A stretch of 43,014 bases of DNA, taken from a virus. Positions 4,909 to 42,432 of the stretch are shown here, piece by piece. Below the pieces are notes generated by a model, which was given only the letters and a program-made list of their open reading frames with translations, was not told where the DNA came from and ran no database searches. The stretch's first letter is position 1, and every line of letters starts with the position of its first letter. The DNA lies in the IMG/VR virus record IMGVR_UViG_3300042554_001565, positions 1-43,014 of that record, one strand, 5' to 3'. The translations under genes were made by a program, and so were the position numbers.

Positions 4909-4923
4909 GAGCAGGGAGCCAGC

Positions 4924-7864: not shown

Positions 7865-10800
7865 TCACTGCTGCCGGCGAGGCACCAGGGCTTCGGTGAC
7901 GGCACGGAACTCGTCGTTCGCCTCCGGGATGCTGTTGGCGTAGACCTGGGCGGCCATGCCCTGCCACTCCTTCGCCCACGGTTTGTCGCTGGCCTGCAGC
8001 TGCCCGGTGGCGCGCAGGTCGTAGTAGGTGGCGATCTCCCGGATCACCCATGGCGCCGGCATCTGCTGGCGCTTCGCCGGTGGCCGGTCTTTCACCTCAC
8101 GGTTCGATGATGTGGCCGGATCAGCTTGCAGCGCCCGGTACTCGGGCGAGCGGAAGAGCCAGTTGTAGGCCTCGTAGATGGTCCGGCCCTTGATGGCCGT
8201 TGCCACCAGGTTGCGTAGCGGCGTCTCAAGCGTGTCCACGTCCTTCACCGTGACCTTTTCGCCGTTGTCCCGCTTGAGCACCTGGGCGCGGATCGTCTTG
8301 ATGCTGAACTCCCCCGATCGGCCGTGGAGGTCGTTGAGAAGGTCGTAGTCGCTGCCGCCCTTGGTGCTGTAGCGATATCGGTTCCACTCCTTCTGGGCTT
8401 CCGGCGCCAGCGGCACGCCATTGAGGCGGCCGGTCAGCAATGGCTGAGGAGGATCGAGGAGGTCTTGCCTGTCCAGCTCCTGATGCACCGGCCCGGTGTA
8501 GAAGCCGGGCATGCCCACCGGGTGATCCTCCTGCCGCATCCCTGCGGACAGGTGGATGTCGCGGCCCAGGTGGTCCTTCTCCCGATAGGCGACCCCGGCT
8601 ACGCGCCCCAGGGCCGGCTGCAGGGTGACCAGCAGGTTGCGCAAGCCGTCCTCGGTGAACCGGATCTCCTCGGGCAGGTTGCGCATCAGATCCCGATCCG
8701 CGGCGGTGATCTCGGGGTAGCGGTAGAAGTCCTTGCTGCCGCTTTCGCCAAGCCGCTCAGCGGTGCGGACCAGGCCGCTGACGGGGTTCCCCTGTCCCGA
8801 TGCAACCCAGCCGAGGAACCGCTTCCATTTCGTCTCGTCGTTGCTCTGCAGCACCTGCAGGAACTGTTGCAGGAACTGCAGGGGGGTGGCCCTGACGATT
8901 GTGCCGGTCATCACCTGCCCGATGCCGGCAGCGATCGTCGCCTTGTCGTAATGGCTGGCGCCGGCCGCGTCCGAAGCGTCCTCCAGGTCTTTCCACAACA
9001 TCAGCGTGTTCAAGAGGGGCACCTGGCCCAGTGGGATCGGGATGCCGAAGACGGTGTTGGGGATGTTCCCTGCGGCCAGCCACTCCCGCCGCTGCTTGGG
9101 GTCCTGCGGGCCGTTGCCGGTGAGCTTCCCCCACGGGTTGTCGAGCGCCAGGAAGCCGGCCCCCAGGAAGGCCTGCAGCACCCAGGCACTCTCCACCTGA
9201 GCGATCTGCGCCGCGGTGGGGCTGGCGCCGTGGAGGTGCTGCGTCAGCAGCTTTGCGGTCTTGAACCCCGCCCCCAGCGGGCCGGTGGCCACATCGAGCA
9301 GGAAGGCGATGCTGTTGGTGGGAATCCGGGGGAACGGGAAGGCGGTGGAGTCCAAGACCCATGACGCCTTCTGCGCTCGCTTCTGAATGTCGAAGACGGC
9401 GCCGGCCACTCCCTCCGGATCGTTCTGCATCCGCATTCTCTGGGCATAGTCCCAAGCCCCCTGCTGCAGCTCGTTGGCCAGCACGGGGGTGCCGGGGATC
9501 CCCCTCTGCGCCATGTAGGCGCGTAGGTCTTCGTCGCTGGCCATGTCTTTGGTGATGCCGTTCTTGCGGCGGAAGTCGATCAGGTTCTGCTCGCTCGGGA
9601 TCTGCTGATAGATCGCATCCTCAAGCTGCTTGTCCACGTAGGCCTTCAGCCTGGCCTGATCGGTCACACCGGTCTGCGCATCCACCAGGCCCAGCTGGAT
9701 GCCGTTGCGCTTGGCATCCATCAGCAGGTCGTTGTGGAGCTTGAAGCGGTACATCCGCGCGCCGACCACGTTGTCGTCCACCGACAGCATGCGAAACCCG
9801 GGCGTCACGGGGAAGTTGGTGACGCCGGGGATCTTCTCGGCCAGGGATTTCTGGGTCAGCTTCCAGGCCACATGGAGCTTGTCGCGGATGTCGCGGATCA
9901 GCCCCTCGTCGCCGAACGGGTTCTTGTCGCCGCTGGCCCACAGCCGGGGATCCCAGTTGATCGGCTTCTGCAGCACCTCCCGCGCCTGCTGCAGTTCCTG
10001 CTCGGGGTTCAGTGCCCGCCCGTGCATGTCGATGTCGTTGGCGAATGGTGTGTTCCCGTCGAGGAACCGCTCCCAGTAGAGCTCCCGGAAGCCCAGCCTC
10101 ATGGCCCGCTGGGTGGTCGAGAATGCTTCCCACGCGGTCTGATAGCCCTCCAGCCGATCGCGCCAGGCAGTGCGGAACACTTTCGTGCCGAACGGTGCCA
10201 TCAGCGGTCCGTTCTCCGCTGCCACCTTGGCCAGGCCCCAGGTTTCCATCACCCGGTTGGGGATGGCGCTGCTGAAGATCGGCGTGAAGCCGTTGAACAG
10301 CCAGGTGTCCTTCACGTAGCCCATGTCGCGGCGGGCGGCCGGCGATGTCCAGCGCTCGTCGAGCATGCCGAGTGGATCCATCCCGGCGATCTGGATGTCG
10401 AGCTCCAGCTGCTTCAGCCCCGCTACACCCTCGGGACCTTGGTCCACCAGGCTGGCGACTTTTCCAAAGATGGAATCGTCGTTGTAGTCGGCAATCTCCT
10501 GCTTCGTGGGGATCGGGTTGTCCTCGGTGCCAGGTCGGACGATCAGGTCCTGCTCGGGGATCTTCAGCTGGTCGGAGAAATCACCTGGGGATTTCTTGAG
10601 GCTCTGCAGGGCTTCGCCCAGCCGGCGGCGGTTCAGGGCCCAGTTGCGCTGGCCCAGCAGGGCCTTCTCGTAGCTGGTGGCGAACTTGCGGCCCAGCTCC
10701 ACCGGTGCCGGCACGCCGGCCTCCTTCATGAAGGCCCGGATCGAGCGGATGTCCGCCAGCATGTTCTGCATGGTGAGGTCCGCAATCACCCGGTTGCGGG

Positions 10801-11299: not shown

Positions 11300-14200
11300 G
11301 TGCCGCAGCCTCCTTCGTTGAGTTTCTGTTGCAGGTCATCAATCTGGGCCTTGGTGCCCTCGATCTGGCGCTGCTGTTCAGGCAGCGGCAGCCGGGGGCG
11401 CCCAGCGGCGAAGTCCTGCACCGGCACCACCACGGTTTCAGCCGAAGTATCCCGCGCAGCAGCCTTCACCGCCTCTTTCACGGTCCTGCCGTGAACGGTT
11501 ACCTGGTCAGGATCAAACCCGGCGGCGATCAACGAATCACGGAACTTGCTGGCCGACTTGGATCCACCCTTGGCCTTGTCGTTCGCCAGCACATAGGCGG
11601 CCCGGTCCAGATCGGACTCGAACTGCAGGGTGTTCCGGCCGTACCGCGGGGAGGCCTTGGCCAGCTCGGGGGGCAGGGTGAACTCGGGAGCTCCAGAGAC
11701 TTCGGCCAGGATTTCAAGGTTCTGGCGAATGTTGCCGATGGCCTTGCCAACGCGACGGTAGAGCCGAGCGTCGGACTCGGCCATCCGGCGCATCTGCTGC
11801 TCGAAGAGATCGGCGATGGATCCCGTCGGCTCAGGGGGCATCACGGTGGTGTCCATCACCTCGGGGGTGACGGGTTGCAACCACTCCCGCCCCAGCCCCT
11901 GCGCCTTCTTCTCCTCCAGCGAGAGCAGGTCGTAGCCCTCGGCCTCCCGCGCCGCCTTCTCCGCCGCCCAGGCGATCTCGGCATCCTGCCGGGCGTGTTC
12001 CGCCGCCAGCCGCAGCTCATCGGCAGCGGCCTGCCGGGTGGCGGGCATGTTCGCCAGCTGCTCCTCCAGCGGCAGTGTCGGATCCATGGCGGCCAGCTCC
12101 CGCTGCACCGCCCTGATGTCGGCCGATGGGGCCGGGGGAAGCTCCAGCGGCTGCATTTCGGTGGGCCGCACCTCGCCGTTGGCGATCGCCCGCTGGATGG
12201 CGTGGGCCTCCAGCGTTGCCCGATCGGGTTCGGGGATCGGCGGCGGCGGCGGCGGGGGAGGCGCCAGCTCCTGCGGGGTGGCCTTCATGCCGCTGCCGGC
12301 CAGCTCCCGCTCGATGCTGTCGCCGATCTCCCGCTGGATCTGCTTGGCCACGATCGAAGCGTTCTCGCCCTGCGCGATGCGCTCGGCCCCCCTGCCCAGA
12401 AGCTCTCCCACGGGGCCAGCCTGGTTCTTGAGGGTGTCGAACAGGCCCAGGGCCTGCTGGGCATCGGCCACCCGCTGGCCGGCGGCGGCCGTGTCGATCG
12501 TGGTGGCGCCGGCCTCGCTCAAGGCATCAGCGTTGCGGGTGGCAAATCCAAACAGGCGCCGGTCCTTGGCCAGGCCCGCTCGAACATCGGCGACCAGCTC
12601 GGCCCGCTGCAGCATCGGGTTCAGCACTTCATCCCCGAACAGGCCACCCTGTGCCGATGGGGCCACGACGTTGCCCTGTTGCTTGGCCTGGTCGAGCACC
12701 TCGCGGAAGGTGTCCTCGGTCATCTTCGGGCGCTGCTTCAGCACCTGGTAGGCGCCGCGCATTCCCGGCTCATCGAGGCCTGACTCACCCAGCGCCACGA
12801 AGCGGCCCAGCCGCTGCTCGCCGTTCACGGCCTGTTGGAAGATGTCATCCGGCAGTCGGCTTAGGGCCAGGCCCTGCCGTCCCCAGCCCTTGTCGAGGGG
12901 GATGCCGGCGGCCTGCAGCTGCGCCTGATCGGTCAGGCCGGTGGCCTTGATGAACTTCGCCGCATCGAACGGGGTGCCGTTCCCCGCGCTGATGTTGCTG
13001 ATCGCTCCGGCCGCCCGTGCCCCCGCGGGGGTGGTGGCATTCACCTCTTCCACCCGCAGCGATGGGATGCCCAACCGCCGGGCCAGCGCCAGGCGGTTGT
13101 GGCCGTTCACCGCCTTGGTCTTCCCGTCGCGGGGGTCCGAGAACACCTCCAGCACCCCCTCGGCGTTGGGATCCCACCGCTCGACGCCACCCAGCGACTG
13201 GCCCAGCTGCTCGCCCTGCGCGTTGACGCCTTCCTTGTATTGGAACTCCTTGGGCGCCGCGTAGATGTCCTCGGTTCGCATTGTGCGGATGTCGCCCCAC
13301 AGCCGGTTTGGCACGATCGTGGTGCCATCAGCGGACAGGGCCTGCATCCCGTTGATCACCTCCTCGCGGGAGAAGGGCCACTCCTTGCCGGTGTCGTCGC
13401 CGATCCGTTGTGCCAGGGCGGGGCTGGCGTCCGGGTGTGACAGCTCCTCCAGGGTGGTGGCGGGGAGCCTGTCGAGCTGCGCCGACCACGGCTGCAGGTC
13501 GCCAGCGCCATTCAGGTAGATGTCGCTGAGCTTGTCGGTGGGGATGCCGGCCCAGGCCTCACTGATCTCCTCCCGTGGTTGCGGCATCGGCCGGGAGGCG
13601 ATCACCTCCTCGATGTGCTGCAGCACAGGGCCGCCATCGGCGCCGACGGTGGCCAACGCCTGGAGTTCGGCCGGGTCCAGCTGGCTGACCAGCTTCTGCA
13701 CATCCGCCACCTCTGGCAGTTCCGGGTCGTAGGACGACGGGTCAAGCGGGATGGCCTCGTCAGCGGCTTTGGCCCCCAGCCATTGCTGCACCGGGCTGTT
13801 GGGATCAGGACCCATGCCCCATGGGTCCGCAAGGCCCTCGCCGCGCAGTTCATCTCGTGGCGCCAGGGATTGCCGGGGCAGCGTGTAGAGGCTGTCATCT
13901 GGCGGCGTGGTCGGCACCAGTGCGTTGGAGGCATTGCGCCGCAGCCAGTCTTGATAGGCCGGGTCGTCAGGAGGCCGGGGAATGCTTAAGCCGTCGTCAA
14001 CACGAGGCCCTGATCGCCAGGGCTGGTCAGGGCCGGTGGACCTGATGATTGGGTCCTGGCTGCTGCTCCCAACAGGGGAATCCCGCCATCTCTGGTTGGG
14101 GCCGGTGGACCTGATGATTGGGTCCTGGCTGCTGCTCCCAACAGGGGAATCCCGCCATCTCTGGTTGGGGCCGGTGGACCTGATGGTCGTTGGGGCGAAG

Positions 14201-29663: not shown

Positions 29664-30181
29664 TGCGCCTCCAGCTGCCTTTTCAGCTCTCGCTGCTCCC
29701 GCAAGTGCTGTTCCCACTCATCTGGAGTAAGGCCCCGGCGCCTCGGAGCATGGGCCGGGAGGAGCCGCTGTCCGTTGCCAGCCGCCGCCAGGTGATAGGC
29801 GGCTGGGTTTTCCGCACCCTTTGGGACAATCGCGCCGGAGACCGCCGGCAGCATGGCCAGCTGCTGCGACGTCGGTTGGACGTATCGAGGCAGGTCTGCC
29901 TTGAACCCCCATGCTCGATTCGGCATGCCTCCCTGGCACCGATAGAGCGGCACCATCAGCTGCTGCCACGTCGGGAAGCGCAGGAACTCACCGGTTGCAT
30001 CTTGGATCCAGCGCTCGCATGCCCATAGGAACTGCGGTGTGCTGACCTCCGGGAAATCGATGCTGAAGCTGAGAAACTTCAGCTTGAATTCCTCGGTGTC
30101 CCATGCCGCGTCGGGCCGGGTCCTGATGTGGCGCTCGATCATGCGGCAGCCACGGGTGAAGGCCTCCGGATCAAGCAGCAT
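29660..30181 (-). CDS. Uncharacterised helical protein, possible replication-initiation or helicase-loader partner
   Basis: This 173-residue protein carries FKLKFLSFSIDFPEVSTPQF, then LWACERWIQD and FLRFPTWQQLMVPLYRCQGG. A helical unit with ...W...FP(T)...L recalls helicase-loader or inhibitor proteins of the G39P kind, but the match is only by pattern. The basic C-terminus (RRRGLTPDEWEQHLREQREL) looks like a coiled-coil or DNA-binding tail. It sits directly after the zinc-ribbon protein (11-base overlap). As no phage helicase or primase is present, a host-helicase recruiter is attractive but unproven. Confidence 0.55.
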   Translation of the reverse strand: MLLDPEAFTRGCRMIERHIRTRPDAAWDTEEFKLKFLSFSIDFPEVSTPQFLWACERWIQDATGEFLRFPTWQQLMVPLYRCQGGMPNRAWGFKADLPRYVQPTSQQLAMLPAVSGAIVPKGAENPAAYHLAAAGNGQRLLPAHAPRRRGLTPDEWEQHLREQRELKRQLEAQ

Positions 30182-33058: not shown

Positions 33059-33264
33059 TAGATCGTTCCTCTGCGACGCTTGATTTCATCTACCTCCTCC
33101 CGCACTTGCTCGCGGCAAAAAGCGGATAGGTGATGACTGCATTCCTCGCGTTCCGAGGCTGGAACCTCCATCTCTGCCTGGCAGTAGACATCGACGTTCT
33201 CGTAGTTGACTAGGTTGACCTTTGCAGAAAACGAGCGTGTGACTTTAATCATCAGCGACGTCAC
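33058..33264 (-). CDS. Small conserved-looking protein downstream of SSB
   Basis: This 68-residue protein starts VTSLMIKVTRSFSAKVNLVN. The middle is NYENVDVYCQAEMEVPASER and the end HLSAFCREQVREEVDEIKRR. I remember similar short proteins (IKVTRSFSxKxNLGNYE) in phage genomes, without known function. GTG 33264 overlaps the SSB stop (GTGA); ATG 33252 (MIKVTRSF) is an equally good biological start. It has three Cys residues but no zinc-finger spacing. Confidence 0.6.
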   Translation of the reverse strand: MTSLMIKVTRSFSAKVNLVNYENVDVYCQAEMEVPASEREECSHHLSAFCREQVREEVDEIKRRRGTI

Positions 33265-33908
33265 CAGAGCACCTCCTCGGAGCTGGCGGAGCCTGAGTCG
33301 GCATCGGATCCAAACAGATCAGGAGCGGCAGGGGCCAGGGTGGTGGCGTCCGTGCCCTCCTCCGGCGCGCCGAAGATGCCGGGGTCGACGGCCTGCATGG
33401 AGTACGGAACATGCTGGAGGACGCGCACGCCCAGCAGCTGCAGGGTCAGGCCCTTGCCGCCTTTCGGGTTGTCCCAGAGGTACACGGAATACGCAATCTT
33501 GCAAACCGAACCGTTGCCGATTGCGACATCAACAGGCCACGGATTGCCCTTGGCATCCTGCACCATGGGTTGCGGCAGCTCGGTGCCCCTGGCGGTGGCG
33601 ACGTCACGGCTGAAAGTGATCCTGACAAGCCCGGTAGGCGTTTCTGTGCCGTCCTCGTTAACAGTGGTCTCACGCTTCCAAGGCCTTCCGTTCTGCCCGT
33701 ACTTGGCGTTGCCGCCGAAGTGGTCCATGAATGCCTTGTGCAAGGAGCCGATGAACAGTTTTGCCGCGGGCTCCTTCTCAGGATCTGCCTGTAGCAGCAC
33801 GATCCCGTACTGCATCTTTTCGCTCGATTCGTTCTTGACGAGCTTGGGCTTGAGGACGTTTGCAAACAGCACTTCGCCGGCCGGGGTGACCAGCGCTTCG
33901 GATGCCAT
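33261..33908 (-). CDS. Single-stranded DNA-binding protein (T7 gp2.5-like)
   Basis: This 215-residue OB-fold protein starts MASEALVTPAGEVLFANVLK. The pattern KMQYGIVLLQADPEKEPAAK, the HKAFMDHFGGNAKYGQNGRPWKR region (KAFMDHFGGNAKYGQNG) and DVAIGNGSVCKIAYSVYLWD match phage gp2.5/DUF2815-type SSBs. The C-terminus is acidic with a final aromatic residue (SASSEEVLW), as required for partner contact in gp2.5. It opens the replication operon, 60 bases after the RNA polymerase reading direction begins and behind the CACTAG operator candidate (33936-33967). ATG 33908 has no clear SD; a start at 33950 would overlap the operator. Confidence 0.82.
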   Translation of the reverse strand: MASEALVTPAGEVLFANVLKPKLVKNESSEKMQYGIVLLQADPEKEPAAKLFIGSLHKAFMDHFGGNAKYGQNGRPWKRETTVNEDGTETPTGLVRITFSRDVATARGTELPQPMVQDAKGNPWPVDVAIGNGSVCKIAYSVYLWDNPKGGKGLTLQLLGVRVLQHVPYSMQAVDPGIFGAPEEGTDATTLAPAAPDLFGSDADSGSASSEEVLW

Positions 33909-33935
33909 GGTCTGCAGGTGTGTAGGACTCCCGGA

Positions 33936-33967
33936 CACTAGCGCACCCACTAGCGCCAGCGCTAGTG
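33936..33967. promoter_or_regulatory. Operator candidate A: CACTAG-N6-CACTAG plus inverted half-site
   Basis: CACTAG at 33936 and 33948 are spaced exactly 12 bp apart and are followed by CTAGTG at 33962-33967. ACTAGCGC/GCGCTAGT also forms an 8-bp inverted repeat around CA. The same 12-bp spaced pair occurs before the MarR-like gene (38519-38538). It lies upstream of SSB and next to the RNA polymerase stop. Confidence 0.6.
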
Positions 33968-33968
33968 C

Positions 33969-36380
33969 CTAGCTGAACAGATATTGGTTCTCGCCGATCT
34001 CCCCGTCCATCAGCGCTCCCCGTGGCGGCGGCGGCGGCAGCGCCTTCAGCCCTGCGTTGCAGCGGATCTGCTCGGCTATCTCCTCCAGCCAGTCGGTGGC
34101 GTAGAGGGCCCGGAACTCGTCGAGCAGCGTCTTCTGGAGCCAGCTGGCGTTGGCCGGATCTGTGGCGAAACAGTCGTGGTTCGTCAGCAACGGCGCACCT
34201 TGCTCTCCAGCCCTGGATGCCACGGCATGCACCAGTGCCGCGTCGAAGCTGTGCACCAGGTTGGCGGTGATGCTGGCGTTGGTCCGTCGGGCGCTCAGTT
34301 CCCCCTCCGGCGGGTCCTCCTCGAAGGTCACGGCCGCGAGCTTGCCCAGGAGGTGTGTCCGAATCACGCTCTTGCTCGGCGTCGACCGGCCCACCTGCAT
34401 GGGCCAGCCCATCGGCGTGGTCCACCGGATCTGCTGCTGGTGGCGGCCGGCCACCTGGCGGCCCACGTCGCAGAGCCACCGGCGGAGCTGCATCAGGGAT
34501 GCGGTTTCGGTGCCGAGCACCACCCGCAGCCTGGATTCCAGGTAGCTGCTCGGCCGGTAGATCCGGCCCGCCCAGTCATCGACGGCGCCCAGCCGCTGTT
34601 GAAGCTGATCCCGGATGCCATCGGCCACGGTGCGGGAGGTGCTGCCGAACGGTGTGTGCATCACGGCCGATTTCACCCAGCTGCGATCGATGCCGATCTC
34701 AAGCCAGCCGGCGGCCAGCTGGTGGGCCTGTGCATCCCCGCAATGCAGATCGATCTCCAGCTGCTGCCGCAGGCGCTTCACCACGGCGGAATAGAGGTCG
34801 TTCGGCTCGGTGCCGCAGACATTGCAGAGCTGGGCCATCGCTCGATCCCGGAGCAGGGTTGCGATGATCCCTGCGCCGGAGCAGGTCTGGTCCAGGCGGA
34901 TGGGCACCCGGCACCCCTCCTCTTCGTTGGCCCAGGCCCGCGCCAGTTGCAGGAACTGCCACGGCTGCTTGGCCTCGCGCCACAGATCAGCCCTGCCAAT
35001 GGGATCCGCGGCGATGACATCCAGCCGCCATGCCTCCTCCATGCCCCAATTCCACCGATCTCTCCAGCTGCTGCGTGTCAGGCCCCAGTGGCCTGCAGCT
35101 GCTTTCGGGATCCAAGCCTCCCCTCCCTGGCATCCCCCTCTCCCAGGGCCAAACCGCAGCAGCGCCTTCTGGTGGTCGGGGCCCTGGTGGGTGAGGCCTC
35201 GGTTCGCGGTGAAGGCCCGGCCCCTGAAGTCGAGGAAGTGGGCCTGATAGATCGGCCGGCCCACCAGCGCCTCGGCGGTCTGGAGGGCCCGCTCGATCGC
35301 CACCCGCTTGCAGCTGTTGTCCCTCAGGTCCTGATGGTGCCGGGCTTTGTCGCGCCGCCAGGCATCCTGCACGTCCGGCGGCTCGCTGGTGGGGAATGGC
35401 CCCGCATCGGGAACGGGGTCCCGCTCGACCGGAAACAACCCGGGGATGCCCCGGTCCCACGCTTCCCGCTGAACCCGCAGCATCCACGGGTCCACCTCCA
35501 GCTGCTGCCGCTGGAGGATGTTGACGGCTGCCAGCTGGGAACCGATCCGCCCGGTCAGATAGCTGATGCTCGAGTGATCCCTGTTGCCACGCATCGCCAC
35601 CACCGGGGAGGTGTTGGCCAGGTGCCCCCCTCCCACCAGCCCCTCCCAGGGGATCGGCTCGATCACCATCGGCCCCCGGTTCGGCCGGAGGCTGCGGGGA
35701 GGGTGGCGCCGGATGAAGTCCAGGGCTTTGGCTGAGGGCAGCACCCGCCACTGGGCGCGCCGGTTGGGAAAACAGCTCTTGTCGATGATCACCAGCTCGG
35801 TTTCGCGACGCACCACTTCGAGCAGCAACAGCCCGCAGGTCGCTCGCTCCTGCCGTGTCCAGATCGGGTTGGCCCCCTCGATGGGCCGGGCGGCGATCGC
35901 CATCACCGCCTTGCGCTTCCCTGCCGTGGTCCGGTTGAGCAGCCGATCAAGGCTGGCCGGGGATCGTTTGCCGATCTCGCCGGCCTTCACCTCGGCGTCC
36001 ACGGCCAGGCCGATGGCCAGGGCCAGGCCCTGGAAGCTGACGGCATGGGAGAGGCGGTCCAGGATGGTGACCAGGGCCACCGCCGCGATGCGCTGCGGGC
36101 TGCCGAGGGCGGCCACCAGTGGCAGCGCCCCGTAGCCAGGCCCGCCCAGCTTGGGGTTCTCTGCCCAGCGGTAGAGGATCGCCTCGATCTCTCGCGCCAC
36201 GGGATCAGCGAACAGCTGGAACAGGGCGGTTCCGTATTCGGTGCAGGACTCCCGGCGATACCGGCGGAGCACCTGCCGCATCACCTGGGCTCGTTGCTCG
36301 GCGTTGGTGGCTTCGTGCCATTCCAGCCGCTGCTGAAGGTCCCTGTCCACCGTGGTGGATTTGCTGCTTCCCGGATTCAT
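33969..36380 (-). CDS. Single-subunit T7-like RNA polymerase
   Basis: This 803-residue polymerase transcribes middle and late genes. Motifs in order: YQAHFLDFRGRAF (378-390, T7 MDWRGRVY); motif A PIRLDQTCSG with D497 (T7 D537); O-helix-like RSWVKSAVMHTPFGS with R566, K570 (T7 K631) and F578 in place of T7 Y639; specificity-loop region ~650-700; NLVHSFD with H710; motif C TNHDCF with H735-D736 (T7 H811-D812). The end NQYLFS takes the place of the T7 FAFA foot. ATG 36380 gives a family-like N-terminus; longer starts at 36443 or 36644 add low-complexity sequence. Promoter copies on the - strand are its likely targets. It precedes SSB as in T7. Confidence 0.95.
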   Translation of the reverse strand: MNPGSSKSTTVDRDLQQRLEWHEATNAEQRAQVMRQVLRRYRRESCTEYGTALFQLFADPVAREIEAILYRWAENPKLGGPGYGALPLVAALGSPQRIAAVALVTILDRLSHAVSFQGLALAIGLAVDAEVKAGEIGKRSPASLDRLLNRTTAGKRKAVMAIAARPIEGANPIWTRQERATCGLLLLEVVRRETELVIIDKSCFPNRRAQWRVLPSAKALDFIRRHPPRSLRPNRGPMVIEPIPWEGLVGGGHLANTSPVVAMRGNRDHSSISYLTGRIGSQLAAVNILQRQQLEVDPWMLRVQREAWDRGIPGLFPVERDPVPDAGPFPTSEPPDVQDAWRRDKARHHQDLRDNSCKRVAIERALQTAEALVGRPIYQAHFLDFRGRAFTANRGLTHQGPDHQKALLRFGPGRGGCQGGEAWIPKAAAGHWGLTRSSWRDRWNWGMEEAWRLDVIAADPIGRADLWREAKQPWQFLQLARAWANEEEGCRVPIRLDQTCSGAGIIATLLRDRAMAQLCNVCGTEPNDLYSAVVKRLRQQLEIDLHCGDAQAHQLAAGWLEIGIDRSWVKSAVMHTPFGSTSRTVADGIRDQLQQRLGAVDDWAGRIYRPSSYLESRLRVVLGTETASLMQLRRWLCDVGRQVAGRHQQQIRWTTPMGWPMQVGRSTPSKSVIRTHLLGKLAAVTFEEDPPEGELSARRTNASITANLVHSFDAALVHAVASRAGEQGAPLLTNHDCFATDPANASWLQKTLLDEFRALYATDWLEEIAEQIRCNAGLKALPPPPPRGALMDGEIGENQYLFS

Positions 36381-36653
36381 GCTGCAGGAGCAGGGCCGTT
36401 GGGCAGAAAATCCACCGGGGCCCTGTAGAGGTGAGATCCCCATCCTCACCCCAGTCACGGGAAGTATTCTGCAGGGCCGTAAAGGTGGGCAGCGGTTTTT
36501 AAGTGCGCTGCGTATGCCATTCCGCCATGCCCCCGGCCAGTCCTGGCCCTGGTTCTCAGGTTTCTGGCTGCTGCTTCTGCTGCTTGGGGATGCAGCAATT
36601 CGGCAGCAGAAAGCAGCGACCGGAGAACGGGTGGACGCGTCCACAGTACGGCC
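36381..36653. other. Non-coding leader between the small gene 36654-36914 and the RNA polymerase gene
   Basis: This is 273 bases without a convincing gene. It contains an inverted repeat on the - strand, GGTGAG-GATGGGGAT-CTCACC (around 36427-36447), and a short T-rich patch (gtttttaag near 36495). A host-type promoter for the RNA polymerase might lie here, for example TGCAGAATACT on the - strand near 36468, but no convincing -35 accompanies it. A + strand frame at 36514-36720 with a Leu run is probably spurious. Confidence 0.4.
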
Positions 36654-36914: not shown

Positions 36915-37159
36915 CCTGCCTCCTTGGTTTCGGATGCCCTGAAGCGATGGTGGTACATCATGGCCAAGGCAGCGCGGGCCTCCTCCAGGGTGAGGTGCTG
37001 AATGGGCACATCGCAGAAGGTGAACTGGATCCCTTCGGCTTCCGCCTCTGTGATGAGACCCTTGGCGGCATCCAAGGCCTCCTTGGGAATCATCGGCCAG
37101 CCTTGCTGCTCCCTCCAGAACTTGAAGTATTGCTGCTCATACAGAATTGGGTCTTCCAT
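36911..37159 (-). CDS. Small protein directly downstream of integrase
   Basis: This 82-residue protein starts MEDPILYEQQYFKFWREQQG. It continues with KEALDAAKGLITEAEAEGIQ and ends in a helical LEEARAALAMMYHHRFRASE. There is no membrane segment. The ATG shares a base with the integrase stop (TGATG), and the end overlaps the next start, so the three genes are co-translated. An excision-control or host-directed role would be expected from location alone. Not recognised. Confidence 0.6.
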   Translation of the reverse strand: MEDPILYEQQYFKFWREQQGWPMIPKEALDAAKGLITEAEAEGIQFTFCDVPIQHLTLEEARAALAMMYHHRFRASETKEAG

Positions 37160-38166
37160 CACCCTGCCTCCAGCGCTTCCACGCATGCCGAGAGGGCATC
37201 GGTGGAGAGGTGCAGGTAGCGCTTCACGGCAGCCAGCGAGCTCCAGCCCCCGAAGGTCATCAGCTGCACCAGGCTGATGCCTCTGGTTGCCAGCTTGGTG
37301 GCGCACGTGTGTCGGGTGGTGTGGATGGTCAGGCACGGGTCGTGCGATAGGCCGATGTGCTCCTTGCCCTGATCGAACAGGCGCCGGTACCTGTCATAGC
37401 GATAGGGGAACACACGAGCGCTGGGCACCGGAACTCCGGCGGCTTTCACCGCATCAAGGGCCCGGCTGGTGAGCGGGACCGTGCGGGGCTGGCCGGTTTT
37501 GGTTTTCCAGAACGTCACCCTCGAAAGCTCGAGATCGACATCGCTCCAGCGGAGGCGCTCCACCTCCCCCCAGCGTGCCGCGGTCTCGAGCAGGAACACC
37601 AGCACCAGGGCCGCGGCGGGCTCCTCGATCGCCTGGAAGTAGCTGCACAGCCCGTCCCTCTCTCGATCGCTCATCACCCGGTCTTTCTCCCCGCCGGGCT
37701 TCAGCTGCTTTGGCATGGCCGGCCGGGTGGCGATCCTCCCGTGGAGGTGGGCATCGCTGAACATCGCCTTCAGGGCGGAGAGCTTCCGGTTGATGGTGCC
37801 CGGGCGGTTGCCGTGGCTTCGGAGAGAGGCGCGCCACTGCTCCACCGCTGTCGCGTTGATGCGTTCCAGCGGCGTCGATGCGCCGAAGAACTCCACCGCT
37901 GCGTTGGAATAAATGGCGGCGGTTCGCTCTGAAGCCATACCGGCCCACCGGACGCTCAGCGAAAGGCGTCGGGCCTCGGCGATGGTGAATCCCTGAGGGT
38001 TCACCACAGGTTCAGCCATCAAGGTGTCCCGCAGCTCACGGCGTTTCCGTTCGGCTTCCGCCTTGGTGCGCCCGCTGGCCTGTTTTCGTTTCCCGTCGAT
38101 CGTGACATCAGCGATCCAGCGGACCTGGCCGCTGGCATCGATTCGTTTTCGGACTGCTCCGGTCAT
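37159..38166 (-). CDS. int: Tyrosine recombinase / integrase
   Basis: This 335-residue site-specific recombinase has an N-terminal arm-binding part (GKRKQASGRTKAEAERKRRE) and a core-binding SAM-like domain (~75-150). The catalytic domain has R198 (ETAARWGEVERL), K223 (KTKTGQPRTVPL), H282-x-x-R285 (IHTTRHTCAT), W308 in the usual His/Trp place (GGWSS) and Y317 (AVKRYLHLS); all key residues are present. It suggests integration into the host genome. No attP sharing a tRNA 3' end could be seen nearby. It is co-transcribed with the MarR-like gene upstream. ACCACCTACC (38178-38187) lies 11 bases before the ATG and no SD is present. Confidence 0.95.
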   Translation of the reverse strand: MTGAVRKRIDASGQVRWIADVTIDGKRKQASGRTKAEAERKRRELRDTLMAEPVVNPQGFTIAEARRLSLSVRWAGMASERTAAIYSNAAVEFFGASTPLERINATAVEQWRASLRSHGNRPGTINRKLSALKAMFSDAHLHGRIATRPAMPKQLKPGGEKDRVMSDRERDGLCSYFQAIEEPAAALVLVFLLETAARWGEVERLRWSDVDLELSRVTFWKTKTGQPRTVPLTSRALDAVKAAGVPVPSARVFPYRYDRYRRLFDQGKEHIGLSHDPCLTIHTTRHTCATKLATRGISLVQLMTFGGWSSLAAVKRYLHLSTDALSACVEALEAG

Positions 38167-38187: not shown

Positions 38188-38505
38188 TCACAGGCTTTTG
38201 ATCTGTCGGAGCAGGGCCCGTCCCCTGCTTGACAGCGAGACCCGGTAGCGGCGGCCTTCGTCTGGGTCTCTTGCAACCCTGAGCAGACGGAGTCCTTCGC
38301 GGCCGGTTCGATGCACGTCAGATAGTGCGTTTACAGTTCGGGAGACTGAGGCATTTGACAGCCCAAGATTCTTCTCTATGTCTTCATAGAGGCATGATTC
38401 CATTTGCGCAACCATCAAAAAGACTTGAACGTGATGGAGCGGGAGCGCGGTCGGCTCCAGAACTGAGAAAGCGGCCAAAGCGGCCGAAAGTTGGTCCAGA
38501 TCCAT
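38188..38505 (-). CDS. MarR-family-like winged-helix regulator
   Basis: This 105-residue protein reads LPLHHVQVFLMVAQMESCLY, then EDIEKNLGLSNASVSRTVNALSD (recognition-helix region), and then a wing with RDPDEGRRYRVSLSSRGRALL, where MarR proteins have DxR...LT.kG. It is slightly shorter than usual MarR proteins and lacks the long dimerisation helices. Encoded just upstream of integrase, it is the best candidate lysogeny switch. Two CACTAG half-sites spaced 12 bp lie 14 bases upstream of its ATG (38519-38538), and a phage promoter motif at 38605-38621, suggesting autoregulation. A direct DNA-binding role is inferred from the fold. Confidence 0.78.
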   Translation of the reverse strand: MDLDQLSAALAAFSVLEPTALPLHHVQVFLMVAQMESCLYEDIEKNLGLSNASVSRTVNALSDVHRTGREGLRLLRVARDPDEGRRYRVSLSSRGRALLRQIKSL

Positions 38506-38518
38506 GGCCTAGCGGGGA

Positions 38519-38538
38519 CACTAGAGTAAACACTAGTG
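38519..38538. promoter_or_regulatory. Operator candidate B: CACTAG-N6-CACTAG
   Basis: CACTAGAGTAAACACTAGTG spans 38519-38538. CACTAG occurs at 38519 and 38531, spaced 12 bp as at 33936/33948, and the second forms the palindrome CACTAGTG. It lies between the promoter-like motif 38605-38621 and the regulator ATG, an ideal place for a repressor. Confidence 0.65.
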
Positions 38539-38604
38539 CACCTCTGTAGGCTGATCCTAGAAGGGCTTCCGGATCGCTGCAGCCATGCAGAAACGTGGTA
38601 TGGG

Positions 38605-38621
38605 CCCCTACGGGTGCGAAC
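38605..38621 (-). promoter_or_regulatory. Phage RNA polymerase promoter-like motif (copy P1) before the regulator-integrase operon
   Basis: The - strand reads TTCGCACCCGTAGGGGC. GCACCCGTA equals the Syn5-type core. It lies 100 bases upstream of the MarR-like gene. The downstream half (GGGGCC) differs from GCATGGGG of the late copies. Confidence 0.5.
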
Positions 38622-38656
38622 CTCGATCGACAAAATCAAGATGCTTGAATCCATGA

Positions 38657-41300: not shown

Positions 41301-42027
41301 TTCCTCACAATACATAGGTGGAATGGTCGGGACAGGGGCCTTTTGCTGTCCTGTTGTAAATCGTTACAGAAAGGGGTTGACGGATGGCCTCATGCCCCCA
41401 TCCTCCACTGCCAGGCGGCTCTCAGTGCTTGTTACATGCACCGAGACCCCCTGCAGCACGGTTGCTCTGCCCTCCCTGCTGCTGGGCTCCTCTGCTCTGC
41501 GGTTCTCATGGGTGGGTCAGGCCCCCGGCCGGGGGGGAACTGGCGCCGAGCGCTTGAGGGGACCCCCCGAGCAAATGCGCCACATTTTTTCCGGTGCGTT
41601 GGGGGTGAGTGCACCAGTGGTGCAGAGGATCCCGTTGTTGTGGGGTGGTTGTCTCGTACGGCTTCGCCCCCCAGCGCCCCTGGAACAGCCCGCCTCGCCG
41701 GCGGGGCATCCCGGCTCCGCTTCGCTCCGCCGGGATTCGCGCACAGGGGAAGAGGGGATGCGTGTGCTCTGGGGGTGGAGAGCAGCCTTGGGAGCCTGGA
41801 ATCAGGGAGCAGCGGTGGTCCGTGGGCCCCTGGGATCGGGGGCTGTCATGGGGTCACTAGAGAGATCATGAGATGGAATTCAGAACGGGCCAGCGGTGGG
41901 GAGGGTTTTAGGGGGTAGCCTTGGACGGGCTGTTACAAGCTCAAAACGACAACCCTCTCCACGACTGGGCTGCGAAACCAGAAGTGGATACAAGCGGGCC
42001 GTCTGACCGCCAAACCGCGATCGACGA
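41301..42027. other. Non-coding control region between the divergent halves of the genome
   Basis: There is no credible gene in 727 bases; long frames here have unnatural composition. Visible signals are a GGACAG/CTGTCC hairpin (near 41331-41352), an 8-bp hairpin ATCCCGGC/GCCGGGAT with a loop rich in gcttcgctcc (around 41707-41735), a GC-rich inverted repeat just before it, and CACTAG at 41855. TTACA occurs three times (near 41365, 41431 and 41932). This is where divergent early promoters, an origin or the attachment site would be expected. None can be fixed by eye. Confidence 0.55.
41855..41872. promoter_or_regulatory. Degenerate operator candidate C
   Basis: CACTAG at 41855-41860 is followed 12 bp later by CATGAG (41867-41872), two mismatches from CACTAG. 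It is the only other CACTAG in the window besides sites A and B. Confidence 0.3.
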
Positions 42028-42432
42028 ATGGACTCTAGGCACTTCATCAAGACCTACATGCCGGACACCAGCGCCGAGGAGGACAGGCTGCTGCTGCTGG
42101 TGCGGCAGAAGAAGTTGCAACCGCGTGACCTGGTGGTTGTGCGAGCCCTGCAGATGTGCATGTGCAAGGCCGCCGGTCGGGATCAGGGGCGGATCAAGGC
42201 CCGGTTGTGGTACCTGGCGGAGCTGACGGGGACCAAGCCGCCGCACGTCTCCACGTCGATGGCCAGGCTGCGGAGGGAGTACCTGCTGGTGCGGTGTCAG
42301 AACCCGCGTACCGGAGAGGTGTACTACCTGCTGGACCCGCATTTGTTCGCGATCGGGAGAGCCCAGAAGGAGGGGCACCTGTGGTCTCAGTTCAAGGCGG
42401 CCTTTGAGTCGGGGGGCGTCGTGGAGGACTGA
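42028..42432 (+). CDS. Winged-helix DNA-binding protein, replication-initiator (RepL)-like
   Basis: This 134-residue protein starts MDSRHFIKTYMPDTSAEEDR. A helical N-terminus is followed by IKARLWYLAELTGTKPPHVS, then TSMARLRREYLLVRCQNPRT (helix-turn-helix plus start of the wing) and GEVYYLLDPHLFAIG. The order HTH - Leu-rich helix - charged turn - YxLDPxLxxxG is that of RepL-type plasmid replication proteins and related winged-helix regulators. It is the first + strand gene after the control region. It could initiate replication or regulate the + strand genes; the sequence does not decide. Confidence 0.6.
   Translation: MDSRHFIKTYMPDTSAEEDRLLLLVRQKKLQPRDLVVVRALQMCMCKAAGRDQGRIKARLWYLAELTGTKPPHVSTSMARLRREYLLVRCQNPRTGEVYYLLDPHLFAIGRAQKEGHLWSQFKAAFESGGVVED

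Follow-up and report, generated by a model that had tools for sequence, protein, structure and literature searches.

Does one phage-encoded regulator tie the integrase operon of a T7-like cyanophage to its replication operon? The question arises from a short word, CACTAG, that a first-pass annotation reported in like-spaced pairs ahead of both operons. The gene content of the window (the whole 43,014-nucleotide stretch analysed here, positions 1 to 43,014 of the IMG/VR viral record IMGVR_UViG_3300042554_001565) is that of a T7-like cyanopodovirus. On the minus strand are a single-subunit RNA polymerase (RNAP, 33969 to 36644, start codon uncertain), a gp2.5-like single-stranded DNA-binding protein (SSB, 33261 to 33908, for which the annotation scan used a longer ORF), and a MarR-type regulator (marR, 38188 to 38505), a relative of P-SSP7 gp0.7, with a tyrosine integrase directly downstream (37159 to 38166). 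A head-tail adaptor, a major head protein, and tail proteins complete the T7-like set, and a divergent winged-helix-like gene lies on the plus strand (42028 to 42432). Among the cultured phages of the collection, Synechococcus phage S-SRP02 is the nearest relative (RNAP 39%, MarR 56%), and its p013 is a homologue of the divergent gene. A relative in circularly permuted order, the 44.8-kb contig L101, comes from a Cyanobium metagenome-assembled genome; the window therefore covers nearly a whole genome, and the probable host is a picocyanobacterium.

CTAG arrays and their conservation

Both control regions contain a triple CTAG array on the minus strand. O-marR (38507 to 38538) has boxes at 38509, 38521, and 38533 and ends 3 bp before the marR ATG, while O-ssb (33936 to 33967), which is non-coding, has boxes at 33938, 33950, and 33962 and lies past the RNAP stop codon and ahead of the SSB ATG at 33908. 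The gene positions given in the first-pass annotation are therefore correct, as is the exact 12-bp pitch, but what had been taken for pairs are triplets of CTAG-centred boxes. All five CACTAG words listed on the plus strand are present, and two more lie on the minus strand (33962 and 38533). The resulting total of 7 compares with 6.7 expected by chance, so the count itself is not evidence, and enrichment of the word was rejected as an argument because it is not over-represented. The spaced motif CTAG-N8-CTAG, by comparison, is seen four times against 0.08 expected, always inside O-marR or O-ssb, and 100 shuffles never gave more than 2 copies. Each array includes a 20-bp dyad, CACTAG-N8-CTAGTG, whose 9-bp arms are perfect at 33948 to 33967 and carry one mismatch at 38519 to 38538. 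Across the genome CTAG is depleted about sixfold (23 seen vs 138 expected from base composition), a depletion also present in relatives.

The fifth CACTAG, at 41855, had been recorded as a lone copy. Its position stands, but it belongs to a third site, O-early (41855 to 41872, minus strand), in which a single CTAG box has a degenerate partner 12 bp away. O-early lies upstream of the divergent winged-helix gene and is retained in those close relatives whose sequence spans it; its matrix score in the window is low, and it is probably a weaker site there.

In five related records of 30 to 47 kb, CTAG-N8-CTAG occurs exactly four times each, solely at the two orthologous places. Across ten close genomes, none of the 24 columns in the six CTAG boxes varies, as against 78 of 159 neighbouring columns (p = 5.8e-7, a value that serves only as a guide since these genomes share ancestry). 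When the triplet was sought in 2.9 million viral contigs, it turned up in 43 stretches, among them the close relatives with the array at one or both places; most of the others resemble in-frame 12-bp coding repeats, and the matches in two distant T7-like contigs (L053 and L057) were set aside as such repeats rather than sites. The paired motif is present in close relatives, where the first-pass annotation had proposed looking for it, and its central claim, that the marR-integrase and SSB operons share a motif, is borne out by a single conserved one.

O-marR lies inside a conserved small ORF (38415 to 38654, minus strand) that overlaps the marR start in another frame, and coding conservation therefore had to be considered. 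The ORF comprises about 50 residues upstream of marR plus the overlap and encodes a peptide (..LQRCTSV../..LHRCQTPRSRRRYGPWIY..) that can be recognised throughout the group. Conceivably the O-marR array is kept solely as part of this small protein, its likeness to O-ssb being coincidence or duplication: the array is in frame, 12 bp make four codons, and coding repeats in frame account for many unrelated matches of the array pattern. We nevertheless regard this as very improbable. The same array is equally constrained in the non-coding RNAP-SSB gap; within the boxes, the third bases of the Thr ACT, Ser TCT, and Ser AGT codons are kept while their neighbours change, so that the boxes are fixed at silent positions; some relatives retain the CTAG boxes although the small-ORF peptide is altered; and in clade 2, described below, the motif has changed together at the marR and RNAP-SSB places.

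The wider group and the RNAP-SSB promoter

A MarR profile search found 48 viral and 3 genome loci, close relatives included; an alignment with the distant members was dropped, its diversity being too great for scanning the collection. At the corresponding places, dozens of remoter relatives, with MarR proteins 49 to 64% identical, have a CTAG-centred palindrome, and nearly all genomes outside the window's clade carry one, typically GACTCCTAGGAGTC, some 25 bp upstream of the start of marR. Between RNAP and SSB, many of them hold a pair of CCTAGG palindromes whose centres are 23 bp apart; the outer boxes of the window's triplet are separated by a similar distance, 24 bp. CTAG is found both at marR and in the RNAP-SSB gap in 27 of 30 non-redundant genomes, against 0.3 expected from CTAG density, although the compared genomes are related and their counts are not independent. 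At the early place, 3 to 4.6 kb upstream of marR, many clade 2 genomes have two full palindromes 13 to 14 bp apart, located 35 to 60 bp before the divergent winged-helix gene. The sites are lacking or degraded in L012, L077, and L099. For L077 we considered CTACA-N4-TGTAG, present at all three places, as a switched operator and rejected it, as the same motif stands upstream of the window's capsid gene and the L077 record has five copies of it; these are probably phage-RNAP promoters. The viruses carrying the set of CTAG sites are one family infecting freshwater cyanobacteria, seemingly lytic.

The clade 2 gaps also indicate which promoter may be controlled. A σ70-type promoter, TTG[ACG]NN-17-TANNNT, is present in 17 of the 21 non-redundant gaps (0.13 expected from shuffles), with TTGACG-17-TACCTT in S-SRP02 as an example. 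In most of these, one palindrome lies just upstream of the -35 hexamer and the other within the 17-bp spacer, which is the layout of a repressor-occluded promoter. No σ70 hexamers were recognised in the RNAP-SSB gap of the window's own clade, where the middle O-ssb box roughly occupies the expected -35 position, and no strict σ70 promoters are conserved near O-marR and O-early. On these grounds there is good reason to propose repression at O-ssb in clade 2, and less reason elsewhere.

S-SRP02 brings the sites into a cultured phage. With a matrix trained on the marR and SSB sites of other genomes, the top four matches in its genome are marR, SSB, and early sites at 19.0 to 21.3 bits, followed by 13.7 and then 8.2, and CNCCTAGGNG occurs in the whole genome solely at those four sites. 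Like the window, S-SRP02 (PMC8790148) has operators at all three places, but these are 14-bp GACTCCTAGGAGTC-type palindromes rather than 12-bp triplets (one at marR, two at the early site, and two boxes 23 bp apart at SSB), and its σ70-type promoter is recognisable. The accessible part of that paper contains no description of the operators that we could find.

Candidate binders and mode of action

MarR-family regulators bind as dimers to palindromic or pseudopalindromic operators, usually including their own promoter region. The conserved dyad at the start of marR occupies such a putative autoregulatory position. The AlphaFold2 model of the marR product (pLDDT 89) has a winged-helix MarR fold, and its best PDB match is the E. 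coli MarR-operator complex 5h3r, followed by BpsR and MexR. A Pfam scan of the single protein gave no match, whereas a profile built from its family hits structures of MarR-family proteins (best E = 3e-7) and phrog_9665 annotates it as a transcriptional regulator. In genomes that share a marR operator, its recognition helix hardly varies.

Taken together, these observations suggest that a single regulator encoded by the phage, most probably the MarR-type protein, has the CTAG arrays as its operators and controls three places, a reading to which we assign a probability of about 0.68. One regulator probably controls all of the two or three site places in a given genome. We infer the identity of the binding protein, repression rather than activation, and the role in lysogeny.

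The other winged-helix protein (42028 to 42432) could be the binder instead, with the sites as its regulon and marR as one target. Its gene adjoins O-early, with the clade 2 operators 35 to 60 bp before its start, and the S-SRP02 homologue p013, scanned against Pfam, yields weak MarR_2, HTH_36, and RepL matches, all below cut-off. Its presumed recognition helix, however, varies widely among genomes with identical marR operators (L062 vs L068), and L013, which has no detectable homologue of the divergent gene, carries CTAG boxes at each of the three places. The alternative is thus unlikely in our judgement; the MarR fold, the autoregulatory position, the constant helix, and the case of L013 favour MarR as the binder, short of proof, and the regulator proposed in the first-pass annotation stays the best candidate, with the divergent gene as a likely O-early target. 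The sites might also serve no regulator as operators but act as integrase arm sites, replication iterons, phage-RNAP promoters, or RNA hairpins for processing or termination, given that repeats lie near the integrase gene and before replication genes and that 33948 to 33967 could fold as a 9-bp hairpin. This set of functions is very unlikely: O-marR and O-ssb are about 4.5 kb apart, the further copy lies in the early region instead of at the 3' end of the integrase gene, structural genes that have no CTAG boxes are preceded by another candidate promoter motif, and the clade 2 boxes at and inside a host-type promoter fit DNA binding.

If MarR is the binder, its dimer would contact CTAG-centred boxes at three places. 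Occupancy of O-marR would autoregulate marR and the integrase gene, perhaps by blocking elongation or an unrecognised start near the marR ATG; occupancy of O-ssb would shut off the SSB and replication operon; and O-early, bound more weakly in the window's phage, would place the early control region by the divergent winged-helix gene under the same regulator. In the wider group the protein would cover the σ70-type promoter, one box abutting the -35 and the second lying in the 17-bp spacer. Abundant regulator would then hold replication off and allow integration, and its dilution or inactivation would let the lytic programme run. A more specific proposal is that the regulon decides between replication and integration by occluding a host-type SSB/replication promoter after the RNAP gene instead of silencing the promoter of the phage RNAP. 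This is tentative, and the odds are against it; were it true, such a switch could explain integration without classical lysogeny.

Comparison with known phages

The principle of a MarR protein and its operators in temperate T7-like phages is already known or proposed, given the LUZ100 proposal and a palindrome in Pasto. The accessible part of the LUZ100 paper (PMC10134795) proposes MarR control of lysis-lysogeny, and, as cited there, Boeckman et al. 2022 proposed a MarR-based switch for the temperate T7-like phage Pasto and binding sites around the RNAP promoter in temperate T7-like phages. Pasto (MT708545) shares with the window the gene order HTH regulator-integrase-RNAP. Its 16-bp palindrome, GTCAC-N6-GTGAC, is found at 698 in the early region, at 8768 and 8868 before RNAP, and at 11856 just after RNAP. 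Unlike in the window, the operator sequence is another one, the sites precede RNAP rather than the regulator gene, and an extra copy lies at 30078 inside a tail gene. Pseudomonas phage LUZ100 resembles the window in that MarR and integrase genes are co-transcribed upstream of RNAP and have a proposed lysis-lysogeny role (PMC10134795, accessible part). We found no shared palindrome in the LUZ100 control regions, and its authors report no operator sequence in that part of the paper. A scan that recovers the sites of the window, S-SRP02, and Pasto gave no clear shared palindrome in LUZ100, HTVC019P, or RHEph21. Prochlorococcus phage P-SSP7 has the same order of a MarR-type gp0.7 (40% identical), integrase, RNAP, and SSB, but its RNAP and SSB genes abut, leaving no gap for an O-ssb, and no CTAG array was found in its gp0.7-int-RNAP module.

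The window thus has two traits of the Pasto/LUZ100 type, a marR-integrase module just upstream of RNAP and one operator at several control regions, but lacks the sites proposed upstream of RNAP in that type. That type has its attachment site in a host tRNA gene; the window holds no tRNA, and an attP search in 42 genomes of the genus gave, besides the phage contig itself, short weak matches only and no clear result. Of the three genome loci, L101 is the whole phage contig and not an integrated copy, and the other two are short contigs. Against a lysogeny role stands work on other phages: engineered T7-like marine cyanophages integrate yet give no stable lysogens, and T7-like marine cyanophages are reported to be without a repressor homologue (PMC8776855). 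New relative to Pasto and LUZ100 are operators centred on CTAG, sites of this kind at marR and in the SSB promoter, and the retention of the set by dozens of cyanophage genomes, none of which we found described in the largely open-access literature or the accessible part of the S-SRP02 paper. Given a candidate repressor, its putative operator from two clades, the promoter predicted to be blocked, and S-SRP02 as a cultured phage, the possible dormancy of these seemingly lytic cyanophages is now directly testable.

Several other features of these genomes were recorded. A CYACACCCNTGTAGCA-like motif recurs before genes, including that for the major capsid protein (5' ends at 4910, 5373, 24506, 41781, and 33926, minus strand), and is perhaps a phage-RNAP promoter; the copy just downstream of O-ssb (CCTACACACCTGCAGACC, 33909 to 33926, minus strand) is a candidate that scores well below the best. 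Repeated CCACCTACCNACC tracts precede several small early genes between 40140 and 41300. In L063 (about 2740 to 2860) and at orthologous clade 2 places, a long imperfect inverted repeat (TTGCCCC..CTGG..CCCAG..GGGGCAA) lies just downstream of the early operators. Finally, a 587-residue minus-strand ORF at 186 to 2261, which has no PHROG match, overlaps a 626-residue plus-strand ORF (381 to 2261) that may encode the large terminase subunit and, as in S-SRP02, be transcribed in the direction opposite to the other genes.
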